In this document: positions 22,284 to 35,800 of the stretch, piece after piece | Layout: each line of letters starts with the position of its first letter | Position numbering within the stretch: the first letter of the stretch is position 1 | Assembly (NCBI GenBank): GCA_007693535.1 | Contig: REDK01000120.1 | Coordinates: 1 to 64,000 of the forward strand | Reading direction: 5' to 3' | Length of the DNA stretch: 64,000 bases | Source: Chromatiaceae bacterium | GTDB lineage: Bacteria; Pseudomonadota; Gammaproteobacteria; Chromatiales; Chromatiaceae | Program-made: the position numbers and the translations under genes | Notes under the pieces: generated by a model | Seen by the model: the letters and a program-made list of their open reading frames with translations, nothing else | The model's database searches: none | Told to the model about the DNA's origin: nothing

Positions 22284-23363
22284 ATGGCCAGCAGCGGCGA
22301 CCCGAGGTCGGGCACGGTCAATCCCTGGGGGACGGGCAACGCCAGTGCGCCGGCGCCCACCAGCGCCGATTGGTTGAGCGACAGCGGCGCGGAGACCGCC
22401 GCGCGGCTGCCGTTCGACCTTTGGTACCCGTTCCAGGAGGCGGTGATCCCGTTGGGGGCCTGGGTCGAGCAGGGTCTGGACTGGCTGGTCGCCAACTTCC
22501 GGCCACTGTTTCAGGCCATCCGCTGGCCGATCGATGCCACCCTCGGCGCCGTCGAGGCGGCCTTGCTGGCAACGCCGCACCCGCTGATGCTGACCCTCTT
22601 CGGGCTGCTCGGCTGGCAGGCGGGGGGCTGGCGGCTGGGCCTGGGGGCGGTCCTGGCACTGACCACGGTCGGCCTGATCGGCGCCTGGGACGCGGCCATG
22701 GTGACCTTGGCCCTGGTCCTGACCGCGGTCCTGTTCTGCCTGCTGATCGGCCTGCCCGGCGGCATCGCGCTGGCGCGCAGCGAGCGTGCCAGCGCCCTCG
22801 TGCGACCCCTGCTCGACGCGATGCAGACCACGCCGGCCTTTGTTTATCTGGTGCCGGTGGTCATGTTGTTCGGTATCGGCAATGTGCCCGGGGTGGTGGT
22901 GACCATCATCTTCGCCCTGCCACCACTGGTTCGCCTGACCAGTCTCGGCATCCGACAGGTCCCGGCCGACCTGGTCGAGGCGGCCCGCGCCTTCGGGGCA
23001 TCGCCCCGGCAGTTGCTGTTGAAGGTGCAATTACCGCTGGCGCTACCCACGATCATGGCCGGCGTCAACCAGACGCTGATGCTGGCCCTATCCATGGTGG
23101 TCATTGCTTCGATGATCGCGGTCGGCGGCCTGGGACAGATGGTGTTGCGCGGCATCGGCCGGCTCGACATGGGGCTGGCCACCATCGGCGGGGTTGGCAT
23201 CGTCTTGCTCGCTATCCTGCTCGACCGGATCACCCAGTCGGTTGGCCGCTCGACCCGCGTGCGGGGACAGCCGCAGCGCTGGTTCGAGCGCGGCCCGGCC
23301 GGGCTCGTGGTCAGACCGATGCGCTGGCTGGTGCGCCGCTCCCGGCGGTCGGGCACCGCATAG
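22284..23363 (+). CDS. proW: Glycine betaine/proline ABC transporter permease
   Basis: Multiple TM segments, [48 protein letters not shown]-like EAA loop. Confidence 0.93.
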
Positions 23364-23478
23364 GTGCGGCTTCAGCCGCCGACCTGGGTCGCATGTCACG
23401 CGGCTGCAGCCGCCCACTATCCATCCCGGGCGCCCAGCCCCGGGCGCCCGGTTTCCGGCAGACCAGAGGAGACAACGC

Positions 23479-24618
23479 ATGCTCAAGCGACCACCCTATC
23501 ACGCTGGTTTGGCTCGCCGTGACGATGACCATCGGCCAGTTCCGCGCCCGTGCGCTGGCGCCTGCCAATGGTTCCCGGCCCTGCTCAGCCGTCTGCTGTG
23601 CACCGCGACGCTGCTGCCAGCGCTCGTCCTGGCCGTGCCCCTGACCGATACCGAACCCGCCGGCAACGAGTCCGTGGCCACCCAGCCGGGTGCCGGGGTG
23701 CGGGTCGAGCCGCTACAGAGTTCGATCGCCGAAGAGACCTTTCAGACCCTGCTGGTGGTCAAGGCCCTGGAGGCCCTGGGTTACGACGTCCAGCCGATCC
23801 GCGAGATCGAATACCCCGCCGCCCACATCGCCGTGGCCAATGGCGATGCCACCTTCATCGCCAACCATTGGGACCCGCTACATGTGGATTTCTACACCGC
23901 TGCCGGCGGCGACGCGCGGCTCTATCGCGAAGGGGTCTATTCGGGCGATGCCCTGCAAGGCTACCTGATCGACAAGGAGACCGCTGAGGCCTACGAGATC
24001 GACAACATCGCCCAACTGACCGACCCGGCGCTGGCCGCGCTCTTCGACAGCAGTCGCGATGGCAAGGCCGACCTGGCCGGCTGCACCCCCGGCTGGGGCT
24101 GCGAGCAGGTCATCGAGCATCATCTGGATGCCTATGGCCTGCGCGAGAGCGTGACTCATAACCAGGGCAGCTATGCCGCGATCATGGCCGATACCGTGGC
24201 CCGCTATAGTCAGGGTGAGCCGATCCTCTACTACACATGGACCCCGCACTGGGTCAGTGGGGTGTTGGTTCCGGGCGAAGACGTGGTCTGGCTGCAAGTG
24301 CCCTTCAGCGCCTTGCCCGGCGAGCGCGCGCAACTCGACACCACCCTGCCGGACGGGTCCAACTACGGCTTCCAGGCCAATACCCAGCGCATCGTCGCCA
24401 ACCGCGACTGGGCCGAGGCCAATCCCGCCGCCGCGCGCCTGTTCGCGGTGATGGAGGTCAGCAACAACGACATCAGCGCCCAGAATTTGCGCATGCGCGA
24501 TGGCGAGAACAGCCCGCGGGATATCGAGCGACATGCCGAGGCCTGGATTCGGGCCAACCGCGAGACCTTCGACGGCTGGCTGGAGGAGGCCCGCGCCGCG
24601 GCGGTTGATGCCGGTTGA
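23479..24618 (+). CDS. proX: Glycine betaine substrate-binding protein
   Basis: [61 protein letters not shown]. Confidence 0.93.
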
Positions 24619-30793: not shown

Positions 30794-32434
30794 ATGGCCA
30801 CCCTGAGCAGCACGCCCGCCTGGCAGGCCCTCGATCAGCACCGCCAGCACTGGGCTGACCGCCACCTGCGCGACCTGTTCCGGCAGGACCCCGACCGCGC
30901 CGACCGCCTGTGTGCCGACGCCGCCGGCCTGCACCTGGACTACTCCAAGAACCTGATCACCGACGAGACCCTGGGACTGTTGTTCACGCTGGCGCGGTCA
31001 GTGGATCTGGAAGACTGGCGCGCGCGCATGTTTGCCGGCGAGCCTATCAACAATACCGAGGGGCGCGCGGTCCTGCACGTGGCCCTGCGCAACCGGGCCA
31101 ATACCCCGATCCTGGTCGATGGCCAGGATGTGATGCCGGAGGTCAACGCGGTGCTGGCGCGCGTCGGCGCCTTCAGCGAGCGGGTGCGCAGCGGCGACTG
31201 GCGCGGCTTCACCGGTCAGCCGATCAGCGATGTGGTCAACATCGGCATCGGTGGTTCCAATCTCGGGCCGAAGATGGTCTGCACCGCACTCGCGCCCTAT
31301 CAATCGGGACGGCCGCGACCGCACTTTGTCTCCAATGTCGACGGCAGCCATCTGGCTGCAACCTTACAGGGGCTGGACCCGGCCACTACCCTGTTCATTA
31401 TTGCCTCCAAGACCTTCACCACCCAGGAGACCATGACCAATGCCATGAGCGCCCGGCAATGGTTGGTGAACGCACTGGGCAGTGATGCGGCGGTGCGCAA
31501 TCATTTCGTCGCGGTCTCGACCAACGCTGATAAGGTCAGCGCATTTGGGATCGATACCGAACAGATGTTCGGGTTCTGGGACTGGGTCGGCGGGCGCTAC
31601 TCGCTGTGGTCAGCTATCGGCCTGCCAATCGCGATCGCGATCGGTCATGATCGTTTCATCGAGTTGCTGGAGGGTGCCCATGCGATGGATCAGCACTTTC
31701 TCACTGCACCCATGGAGCAGAACCTACCCGTGATCCTCGGTCTGCTGGGGGTCTGGTACATCGACTTCCTTGGTGCCCGCACCCATGCTATCCTGCCCTA
31801 TGATCAATACCTGGAGCATTTTCCAGCCTATTTCCAGCAGGGCGACATGGAGAGCAACGGCAAACACGTCACGCACACTGGCGAGCGCGTGGACTATGCG
31901 ACCGGACCAGTGGTCTGGGGGCAGCCCGGCACCGACGGCCAGCATGCCTTTTATCAATTGATCCACCAGGGTACCGAGCTGATCCCGGCCGACTTCATTG
32001 CACCGCTGCGCAGTCATCATCCGCTTGGCGATCATCATGCCAAGCTCATTGCCAACTGCCTGGCTCAGACCGAGGCCCTGATGCGGGGGCGCACTCACGA
32101 CGAGGCGCGTGCGGAGATGCTCGCCGCCGGGCTGCCACCCGCCGAGGCCGATCGCCTTGCCCCGCATCGGCAGTTCGATGGCAACCGCCCGACCAATACC
32201 ATCCTGATGAACCAGGTCACGCCGCGCAGCCTGGGTGCCCTGATCGCCCTCTATGAGCACAAGATCTTCACCCAGGGGGTCATCTGGGGGATCAACTCCT
32301 TCGACCAGTGGGGCGTGGAACTCGGCAAGCAGCTCGCCGGGGTGATCCTGCGCGAGATCGAGCGCGGGGAGGTCGGTCCCGACCACGACGCTTCAACCCG
32401 TGCCCTGCTCGCGCACTTCCTGTCCCACCGCTGA
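30794..32434 (+). CDS. pgi: Glucose-6-phosphate isomerase
   Basis: [46 protein letters not shown]. Confidence 0.95.
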
Positions 32435-32562
32435 ATCCCCGCGGCGCCGGGCGCCGCATCCCACCATCTCCGGCAGGCCTGGCCTTGCCAGCCACGGCCG
32501 GCCAGGGCAACAGTTGCCTGCCGAACGGCGGTAGTCCCCTGCCACCCGCAAAAGGATTCATC

Positions 32563-34773
32563 ATGAGTGTAACCAAGCAACCCAGGCGGCGCCGTCTCGG
32601 CATCGCCACCCAGGTCTTCATCGGCCTCGGGCTGGGCATCCTGGTCGGGGTCTTCTTCGGCGACAAGGCGGCATTTCTGAAGTATGGCGGGGACATCTTC
32701 ATTGCCCTGCTGCAAATGACCGTCATTCCCTATGTGGTGGTGGCCCTGATCACCTCGCTCGGGCGCCTGAGCCTGGCCGAGGCGGCCGCTCTGGGGCTGC
32801 GGGCCGGGGCGGTGCTATTGCTGCTGTGGGTGATCGGAATCGCGGTGGTCCTGCTGACCCCGCTCGCCTTTCCGGATTGGCCATCGGCGTCCTTCTTCAG
32901 TACCAGCCGCATCGAGGAGCCACCGCCGGTGGACTTCCTGCGTCTGTATGTGCCAGCCAACATCTTCTATGCGCTGGCCAACGCGGTGGTGCCGGCGATC
33001 GTAGTGTTCAGCATCATCTTCGGCGTCGCCCTGATTCGGATCAACCAGAAGCAGCGACTGGTGGACCTGCTCGGCACCGTTGGCGATACCCTGCTGGTGA
33101 TGACCGGTTTCGTTGCGCGGATCGCTCCCTGGGGCGTATTCGCCATCACTGCGGGCGCGGCCGCGACCATCGAGATTGCCGATCTGGCGCGGCTGCAGGT
33201 CTATCTGGTGGTGTATGTGGCCATGGCGCTGCTGCTCAGCCTGTGGGTCATCCCGGGGCTGATCGCGGTCCTCACGCCGCTGTCCTTTGGCAGCGTCTTG
33301 CGGGCCTTTCGCGGGCCACTGGTGACCGCCTTTGCCACCGCCAACGTGCTGATCGTCCTGCCGGTCCTGGCCGCAGACGGCAAGGAATTGATCGCCCGCG
33401 CCGACGCCGCCGCGCCCGGTCAGGGCAGCCCCGAGGATCTGGAGGCAGAAGACAATGCCATCGAGATCCTGATCCCGGCCGCCTTTCCGTTTCCCAATCT
33501 CGGCCTGGTGCTCTCGCTGATGTTCGTGCTGTTCGGGGGCTGGTTTGTCGGCAGTGCGGTCGCCATTGCCGACTATCCCACCATCGCCGGGGCGGGGCTT
33601 GCCGCCCTGTTTGGCAGTACTATCCTGGCTCTGCCGTTCCTGTTCGATCTGCTGCAACTGCCGGCCGATCTGTTCCAGGTCTTCATCACCGTGGATGTGA
33701 TCGGCGCCCGTTTCGGCACCCTGCTGGCGGGCATGCACCTGATTGCCATCGCCCTGATCGGTGCCTATGCCCTGCGGGGGCGTCTGTACATCCGGCCGCT
33801 GGCGTTGCTGCGGTTTGCCGCGATTTCGGTGGCGCTGCTGTTTGCGCTGCTGCTCGGCATCCGCGCCTTCTATACGTATATCTTCGTCGCCCCGTTCACC
33901 CTCGATCAAGAGCTGGCCGGCATGACCTTGCTGGAGACGCCGCAACCGCACCAGGTCTATCAGGAGGCGATGCCAGCGGCGCGGGCGCCGGCCCCCAATG
34001 CGCTGGCCCGCATCCAGGCGAGCGGGCGCCTGCACGCCTGTTTCCGTCGCAGCGATTACCCCTCCGCCTTCCTCAATCGCGATGACGAGCTGGTGGGTTT
34101 CGATATCGAGATGACCCATCGCTTGGCGCGCGAACTGGATGCCGAGGTGGCCTTCGTCGGCGTTGCCGGCAGCACCGCGGCCGAGCAGTTGATGGCCACC
34201 GGTGATTGCGACCTGTTCATGTCCCTGATGCCGATCTTGCCCGACCTGACCGAGCGTTTCGCGATGACCCGTCCGGTCTTCGACGGGGCGGTTGGGCTGG
34301 TGGTTACCGATCACCGCAGGCGTGAGTTCGAGACCTGGGCGCAGGTCGGCGCGCGGCCCGATCTGCGCATTGCCATCACCGATTCGCGCTCGGCACGGCG
34401 GGCGCTGGAGCGCTTGCTGCCGGCGGCGCAACCGCTGTTCCTGGCCGATAACGAGGCCATCGACGGGCTCCTCGGCGCCGACCCGCCAGCATTCGACGTG
34501 CTGCTGATGCAGGCGGAGGAGGGGGCGGCCTGGACCATCCGCTATCCCCGCTTCAGCCTGGTGGTGCCGCGACCGGTGCGCATGCAACCGCTCGGCTATG
34601 CCCTGCCGCTAGGCGAGCCAGAGCTGCTGGCGTTCGTGGAAGCCTGGCTGCTGATGGCCCTCAGTACCGGCGGTATCGACCAGCTCTATCACTTCTGGAT
34701 GCTCGGCGAGACCGATGTGGTAGCGCCCCCACGTTGGTCGGTGGCACGGGATGTGCTTGGATGGTTCGATTAA
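32563..34773 (+). CDS. SDF-type cation:dicarboxylate symporter-like domain fused to a C-terminal SBP_bac_3 solute-binding domain
   Basis: One 736-aa ORF: SDF-like TM region (GLGLGILVG..QMTVIPYVVVALITSLGRLS...PWGVFAITA), extra TM (LLRFAAISVALLFALLLGIRAFYTYIF), then GRLHACFRRSDYPSAFLNRDDELVGFDIEMTHRLARELD... typical of SBP family 3. Confidence 0.88.
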   Translation: MSVTKQPRRRRLGIATQVFIGLGLGILVGVFFGDKAAFLKYGGDIFIALLQMTVIPYVVVALITSLGRLSLAEAAALGLRAGAVLLLLWVIGIAVVLLTPLAFPDWPSASFFSTSRIEEPPPVDFLRLYVPANIFYALANAVVPAIVVFSIIFGVALIRINQKQRLVDLLGTVGDTLLVMTGFVARIAPWGVFAITAGAAATIEIADLARLQVYLVVYVAMALLLSLWVIPGLIAVLTPLSFGSVLRAFRGPLVTAFATANVLIVLPVLAADGKELIARADAAAPGQGSPEDLEAEDNAIEILIPAAFPFPNLGLVLSLMFVLFGGWFVGSAVAIADYPTIAGAGLAALFGSTILALPFLFDLLQLPADLFQVFITVDVIGARFGTLLAGMHLIAIALIGAYALRGRLYIRPLALLRFAAISVALLFALLLGIRAFYTYIFVAPFTLDQELAGMTLLETPQPHQVYQEAMPAARAPAPNALARIQASGRLHACFRRSDYPSAFLNRDDELVGFDIEMTHRLARELDAEVAFVGVAGSTAAEQLMATGDCDLFMSLMPILPDLTERFAMTRPVFDGAVGLVVTDHRRREFETWAQVGARPDLRIAITDSRSARRALERLLPAAQPLFLADNEAIDGLLGADPPAFDVLLMQAEEGAAWTIRYPRFSLVVPRPVRMQPLGYALPLGEPELLAFVEAWLLMALSTGGIDQLYHFWMLGETDVVAPPRWSVARDVLGWFD

Positions 34774-34942: not shown

Positions 34943-35800
34943 TCAGCGCGTGGTCAGCCGTAGCTGGTTGTGCTCGTCGTCGATCGTCAGGCGGTAGCGG
35001 CCAAGCACGCTCATGCCGAGCAGGCCGGCATTGCCGAGGCGGTCGTCGGGGAGAAAGGCGGCCTGTACCCCGACGATCCGGCGTTCACCCAGCCAGACCG
35101 CCGGCAGGGTGCCGATGCGGGCCTGGGCGATGCCGTTGGCCGTCTGCACGTCGCGGGTGCCGAGGCTGTCATCGTCGATCCCGAGGGCAGCGATCAGCGA
35201 TGCCGGCAGGACCACGGAATCGGCGCCGGTGTCCACCAGCAACAGCCGTTCCACGCGGCGCCCGTCCCCCCCCTCCAGATGGACCAGGACCGAATGCTGG
35301 TTGCCGCTCCGGATGGTCTCCAGCTCGATGTCGTCGGTCTCGTCGGCGTCGGGACTGGCCGCCGAGGTGTCGTGCAACACCACCGAGGGCGGGGTCACCA
35401 GGCTGGTACGCCCGAGGATGATCACCCGCTCGACACTGCCTCCCGGGCCTTGCAGGATGATGTGGTCGAAGCGCTCCAGCAGCAGCCGCAAGCGGTGCCA
35501 GAGGTCGTCGCCCTCGGCATGCCCCACCGCTCCTGCTACCAGTTCGGCACCGGTCAGCTCGAATGTGTGCTCGGCCTGCAGTCGCGCCAGTTCGTCATCG
35601 ATCTGCACCTGCACCGCGGCAGCCGGGACTGGTGCCAGCAACAGCCCCACAATCAGGACCGGAAGCAGCCTTGCCACCTGCCCCAAAACCTGCACCAAAA
35701 CCTGCCTCAGCACCCTGACCGAGGCCCGGCCGGCAGCGGCAGGTCTGCTGGTGGCGAAACGGCCTCGGCGCCATTGTACGGCGCACCGGCTTGTAGTCAT
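34943..35800 (-). CDS. Secreted/membrane-anchored retropepsin-like aspartic protease
   Basis: Catalytic LLVDTGADSVVLP and GLLGMSVLGRYRLTIDDEHNQLRL motifs after a signal/TM segment. Confidence 0.85.
   Translation of the reverse strand: MTTSRCAVQWRRGRFATSRPAAAGRASVRVLRQVLVQVLGQVARLLPVLIVGLLLAPVPAAAVQVQIDDELARLQAEHTFELTGAELVAGAVGHAEGDDLWHRLRLLLERFDHIILQGPGGSVERVIILGRTSLVTPPSVVLHDTSAASPDADETDDIELETIRSGNQHSVLVHLEGGDGRRVERLLLVDTGADSVVLPASLIAALGIDDDSLGTRDVQTANGIAQARIGTLPAVWLGERRIVGVQAAFLPDDRLGNAGLLGMSVLGRYRLTIDDEHNQLRLTTR

Follow-up and report, generated by a model that had tools for sequence, protein, structure and literature searches.

Can a secondary carrier of the glutamate-transporter fold have acquired a binding protein of its own? 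The question is raised by a gene in a 64,000-nucleotide stretch of DNA from a Chromatiaceae bacterium (GenBank assembly GCA_007693535.1, contig REDK01000120.1; the whole stretch is hereafter the window), which couples a membrane region of the SDF/DAACS type to a family-3 binding protein (SBP) in one polypeptide. To our knowledge, known members of the SDF/DAACS family operate without an SBP. An initial annotation of the locus left open whether the product is an SBP-dependent secondary transporter or a transporter-derived sensor.

Identification of an SDF-SBP fusion protein

The gene begins with an ATG at 32563 and closes with the stop codon 34771-34773 after 736 codons, exactly the extent that the initial annotation had given it (Table 1). 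We preferred this ATG over longer starts, namely a GTG at 32308 and a TTG, because a Shine-Dalgarno-like sequence precedes it; the N-termini of homologues also start close to it. The longer starts were dropped: both fall outside the region that homologues share, and the GTG moreover overlaps with pgi. The proposal of one frame with an SDF region, an extra transmembrane segment and a complete family-3 SBP was borne out in Pfam searches, with both domains exceeding their cut-offs: PF00375 (SDF) is matched at 146.5 bits (E 1.4e-42; cut-off 27.9), which disposes of the doubt whether an HMM search would recognize an SDF in the first domain, and PF00497 (SBP_bac_3) is matched over residues 492-713 at 46.1 bits (E 5.1e-12; cut-off 26.4). 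Both families were recovered in 18/18 members of alignment A1. These are the only Pfam domains in the fusion protein, with no output domain such as a kinase or cyclase, no ATPase or ABC permease, no DctM/TctA-type membrane subunit, no SBP of the DctP, TAXI or TctC types, and no GltS. Matches to NCBIfam models (GltP, DctA, amino-acid SBPs) are weak and partial, and stay far under the model cut-offs. The window's own genome contains two SDF matches, of which the fusion is the weaker (147 bits vs 422 bits), and eight SBP_bac_3 matches, the fusion being one of them.

Table 1. Features of the fusion gene and its product in the window
Feature	Residues	Position in window	Strand	Basis
SDF-SBP fusion gene, complete, 736 aa + stop		32563..34773	+	Open frame; co-linear full-length homologues
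Shine-Dalgarno-like AAGGA, 6 nt 5' of ATG		32552..32556	+	Direct reading of sequence
SDF (PF00375) membrane domain	15-399	32605..33759	+	Pfam E 1.4e-42, profile, hhalign
HP1 region, AFATAN at place of serine-rich HP1 motif	245-275	33295..33387	+	Alignment
TM7 motif, PAAFPFPNLG at NMDGT place	305-314	33475..33504	+	hhalign column match
HP2-TM8 region, shortened HP2 tip	342-400	33586..33762	+	hhalign and residue counts
Extra transmembrane helix TM9 (predicted)	413-440	33799..33882	+	Hydropathy; flanking loop charges
Variable linker, predicted periplasmic	441-478	33883..33996	+	19% mean pairwise identity in family
SBP family-3 domain	479-713	33997..34701	+	Pfam 5.1e-12, AlphaFold2, Foldseek
Conserved C-terminal tail, consensus PRWSVxRDVLGW, beyond SBP fold	717-736	34711..34770	+	50% mean identity

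Phyletic distribution and probable single origin of the fusion

A search for the taxonomic spread of this domain architecture recovered 40 distinct full-length fusions among the fetched frames, from two phyla, in Gammaproteobacteria and Verrucomicrobiota. Thiocapsa, Thiohalocapsa, Candidatus Litorirhabdus and one Verrucomicrobiia bacterium all encode it, and plasmids of Halioglobus and Pseudoalteromonas carry it as well. Counting the query genome in each case, it is present in 6/59 relatives, 10/387 gammaproteobacterial genomes and 14/246 genomes of the phylum of the Verrucomicrobiia bacterium. It is absent from seven further genomes of the genus to which the window belongs, and its distribution is therefore patchy. 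Searched viral contigs yielded no relatives of the fusion, and an anti-phage library gave no match to it.

The initial annotation had named an assembly error as the finding that would undo its reading. The occurrence of the identical junction in many independent assemblies from two phyla, together with purifying selection on both halves (dN/dS of 0.06-0.25 for the transmembrane part and 0.15-0.38 for the SBP), refutes such an error and makes the chance joining of two adjacent genes a negligible prospect. In phylogenetic trees each half is monophyletic with respect to 20 stand-alone SBPs and 28 canonical SDFs, respectively, with a clade support of 0.88 in the SBP tree and a modest 0.67 in the transmembrane tree. 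Moreover, the distance matrices of the two halves correlate (r = 0.70; the maximum in 1000 permutations was 0.23). The clades and the correlated distances form the pattern expected if one ancient fusion had been inherited as a unit.

Profile scores are bimodal: full fusions exceed 200 bits with the SBP profile and 400 bits with the transmembrane profile, as against at most 127 bits for stand-alone SBPs with the former and at most 114 bits for canonical SDFs with the latter. The transmembrane profile detected no unfused member at E <= 1e-45 in 291 gammaproteobacterial genomes, and the single frame with a transmembrane part alone (L065) ends at a contig end. With the SBP profile, matches of at least 254 bits in the 59 family genomes all lie in fusion frames and ordinary SBPs reach at most 98 bits, with one 120-bit remnant in the gap between them. 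Thus, within the sampled genomes the fusion is obligatory.

Some copies are of interest in their own right. The above remnant (G329:C1:1296759-1297025, L109), from the same family, spans the end of the SBP (profile positions 179-267) and has an in-frame stop; here the fusion gene is apparently undergoing decay. In one verrucomicrobial genome (G943:C156:10125-12276) the fusion is broken up into two matches that overlap and contain in-frame TAA codons, representing a frameshift, a pseudogene or a sequencing error. The copy of the Verrucomicrobiia bacterium is cut by the contig start (L006 1-1554), and full-length relatives exist in the same phylum. Another verrucomicrobial genome (G754) has four diverged full-length copies, the maximum seen, which suggests an expansion, perhaps with different ligands.

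Aberrant features of the SDF core

With a profile built on 26 relatives, GltPh chains come up at about 1e-25; the alignment is strong up to HP1 and is lost beyond it, and an hhalign comparison of the family with ten canonical SDFs (E 4.5e-40 over 410 columns) runs through to the end. TM1-TM6 and HP1 align readily with canonical SDFs. The initial annotation had remarked on the absence of the canonical NMDGTA and serine-rich HP1 motifs, and both absences hold across the family. HP1 displays the consensus AFAT(G/A)(N/S) where the serine run would be, and the NMDGT motif occurs in 0/40 fusions as against 10/10 of the canonical SDFs, a presence that is by construction as these were chosen for an NMDGT-like motif. 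In its place TM7 reads roughly FxFP(N/S)xGK, with P311 found in 40/40 and G314 in 37/40 aligned fusions. In the alignment, proline occupies the position of the sodium-binding asparagine of canonical SDFs in 40/40 fusions; the position of the aspartate is mostly hydrophobic. Further along, a gap of six alignment columns covers the AGIPG (GxPG) tip of HP2, and TM8 of the 40 fusions has neither the D..R..N..D pattern nor a conserved acid, the register of HP2 and TM8 being uncertain in this very diverged sequence. As the canonical cation- and substrate-binding side chains are missing, coupled transport cannot be assumed.

The core has a conservation pattern of its own: P305, P311, F321, F324 and W327 are invariant in 26/26 transmembrane rows, and the HP2-TM8 region conserves F350, P358, P367, D369 (39/40) and a basic residue at 383 (34/40). 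The invariant residues are located in TM7 and HP2, where the site of a carrier would be. Mean identity is 0.53 in TM7, 0.44 in HP2 and 0.50 in TM1-2, so that the core is about as conserved as the scaffold. By dN/dS, it is under stronger constraint than the SBP, and because its dN/dS is lower than that of the SBP it is not a decaying anchor. In sequence, the SDF core thus looks like a rebuilt site rather than a product of decay.

The extra helix and membrane topology

TM9 has a peak hydropathy of 2.55 and shows little conservation (23% identity), in keeping with what a plain anchor should display. Over 29 homologues, the flanking loops have a mean charge of +2.7 before the helix and -1.2 after it. 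The N-in/C-in topology of the SDF fold is established for GltPh. The positive-inside charges and hydropathy, in conjunction with this topology, fit a cytoplasmic loop followed by an outward-crossing helix, and support a periplasmic location for the SBP domain, where the initial annotation had placed it.

The SBP domain and the C-terminal tail

An AlphaFold2 model of the SBP domain from seven rows (pLDDT 74.7) has as its best Foldseek matches AncCDT-1 and the Trp-bound SBP 9e2b (E about 1e-19), with target-normalised TM-scores of 0.76-0.83 for these two; across the family-3 matches the probability is 1.0 and the TM-score about 0.7-0.8. The full-length model from seven sequences has a pLDDT of 42.7, and a fold search with it recovers the SBP only. 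Contacts with the alpha-amino-acid moiety are typical of the amino-acid-binding family-3 members, and the fold does not need them. In the alignment to AncCDT-1, with contact roles that we assume from SBPs of the LAO/HisJ type, the aspartate for the alpha-ammonium group is found in 0/40 fusions (Gln650 here) and the arginine for the carboxylate in 19/40 (Leu562 in the window protein). As these classical contacts are not retained, ligand binding is itself predicted from the fold, and a standard alpha-amino acid in the classical binding mode is an improbable ligand.

The mean identity of the SBP is 32-37% (about 0.33), and the 20-aa tail that follows it is more conserved (0.50), with R724 and W725 each present in 38/40 fusions. 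These values suggest that the tail touches the membrane half.

Genomic context

The fusion gene is flanked by pgi and by a convergent gene for a predicted retropepsin-like aspartyl protease (34943-35800 on the minus strand; PF13975/PF13650), with argD/argF-type genes farther along. A search for operons or partners found no neighbor common across genera, synteny being limited to two close Thiocapsa loci (L002 and L003). In light of this lack of a conserved partner gene, the fusion protein is probably self-sufficient and works alone. Elsewhere in the window, a frame at 23194-24618 on the plus strand contains a glycine-betaine-type SBP domain (OpuAC, PF04069, E 1e-47); its long N-terminal extension is probably non-coding.

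Functional implications and alternative explanations

We consider it rather probable, based on the architecture and the co-inheritance of the two halves, that the fusion protein functions as a secondary elevator-type carrier with an SBP in cis. The periplasmic SBP would capture a solute and close; in the closed state it would dock on the SDF transport domain from the periplasmic side and pass the solute over, and the transport domain would then move inward, driven by an ion gradient. The tether would stand in for an unattached SBP in the periplasm. Given the loss of the usual Na+/aspartate side chains, the SDF core probably leans on the SBP for selectivity, with other ion and substrate chemistry of its own. 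The invariant-proline motif of TM7 and the C-terminal tail are candidate handover and docking surfaces. More tentatively, and with conviction that falls somewhat short of the above, we propose that these proteins constitute a further class of SBP-dependent secondary transporters, distinct from the TRAP, TTT and TAXI-GltS systems. In this class the glutamate-transporter fold might have abandoned the substrate and Na+ chemistry native to it and turned into a conduit that the attached SBP feeds, with a new invariant proline motif in TM7.

Of the two readings offered by the initial annotation, the SBP-dependent transporter is favored, given the obligatory fusion, a core more conserved than the SBP, and the published precedents for the pairing of SBPs with elevator carriers. 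What the initial annotation said of the domain layout, of a periplasmic SBP and of the missing motifs holds, and transport is what we predict from it. A transporter-derived sensor or transceptor, in which the SBP detects a solute and a non-transporting SDF signals to a cytoplasmic partner, would account for the loss of the canonical binding residues from the SDF core, and family-3 SBPs do serve as sensor domains in histidine kinases, with EvgS among the solved-structure matches. However, we consider it unlikely, since Pfam detects no output domain, such as a kinase or cyclase, in the protein and no conserved neighbor offers itself as a partner; additionally, its C-terminus is predicted to be periplasmic and its core has invariant residues of its own. 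Slightly less likely still is a regulatory role for the SBP, with the SDF transporting alone and the tethered domain gating, stabilizing or sensing as an allosteric lid without any solute handover. SBP-like modules are regulatory in other proteins, and here the SBP evolves faster than the carrier; however, the motifs for stand-alone Na+/aspartate transport are gone from the SDF core (NMDGT in 0/40), and the transmembrane profile found no unfused member of the subfamily in the 291 genomes.

The affinity of the SBP domain to cyclohexadienyl dehydratases brings up one more explanation, under which the periplasmic domain is a related enzyme that feeds its product to the attached carrier. Reconstructed ancestors of these dehydratases are indeed its best profile and fold matches, and two adjacent glutamates (E652-E653) lie in lobe 2 of the window protein. 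Yet the top match, AncCDT-1, is described as an ancestral amino-acid-binding protein, the Trp-binding SBP matches equally well, and position 653 is Glu in 9/40 members only, which makes an enzymatic function highly improbable.

Relationship to known transport systems

The membrane half of the predicted SBP-dependent carrier has, by sequence profile, the same fold of about 400 residues as the SDF/DAACS proteins GltPh, GltTk, GltP, DctA and the EAATs, but it lacks NMDGT, the serine-rich HP1, the full HP2 tip and the D..R..N..D of TM8, and adds TM9 and the SBP. The latter is complete and two-lobed like the other family-3 SBPs (PF00497; AncCDT-1, ArgBP, LAO, 9e2b), from which it differs in being joined to a secondary carrier, in having the extra conserved tail, and in never retaining the alpha-ammonium Asp while keeping the carboxylate Arg in about half of the members.

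A parallel is offered by TAXI-GltS, which also combines a secondary carrier with an SBP, at times in one polypeptide, and for which SBP-dependent elevator transport has been proposed. This system, represented by BP0403/GltS of Bordetella pertussis, was put forward in 2025 as a new SBP-dependent secondary transporter; its rare N-terminal fusions, in Lachnospiraceae, number 14 among about 10,000 GltS entries (PMC12344293). However, its TAXI SBP is N-terminal and unrelated to that of the SDF-SBP proteins, its GltS carrier is likewise unrelated to SDF, and the domain order is opposite. The TRAP and TTT transporters resemble the predicted carrier in being ion-driven and SBP-dependent, and those of the TRAP family are elevator-type (PMC9352664), but they use other membrane proteins (DctQM, TctAB) and other SBPs (DctP, TAXI, TctC), usually encoded by separate genes. 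Covalently tethered SBPs are also known from ABC importers such as GlnPQ and OpuA, with those of the GlnPQ type belonging to family 3; unlike these, the fusion has no ATPase and its membrane part is an SDF rather than an ABC permease.

Prior to the report of TAXI-GltS in 2025, SBP-dependent secondary transport was known in TRAP and TTT only. The authors of that report suggested that an SBP can be used only by a carrier of the elevator type, and asked for more classes with which to test this (PMC12344293). The archetype of the elevators, and mechanistically the best understood of them, is the SDF carrier; the SDF-SBP fusion would therefore offer a direct natural test of this proposal. It would also provide a single-chain system for structural study of SBP handover, and an instance of the glutamate-transporter fold rebuilt without its cation motif. 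The architecture was not found described in the open-access literature, the only literature covered, and its features point to an overlooked type of binding-protein-dependent transporter; the Pseudoalteromonas member bears the RefSeq name 'cation:dicarboxylase symporter family transporter'.
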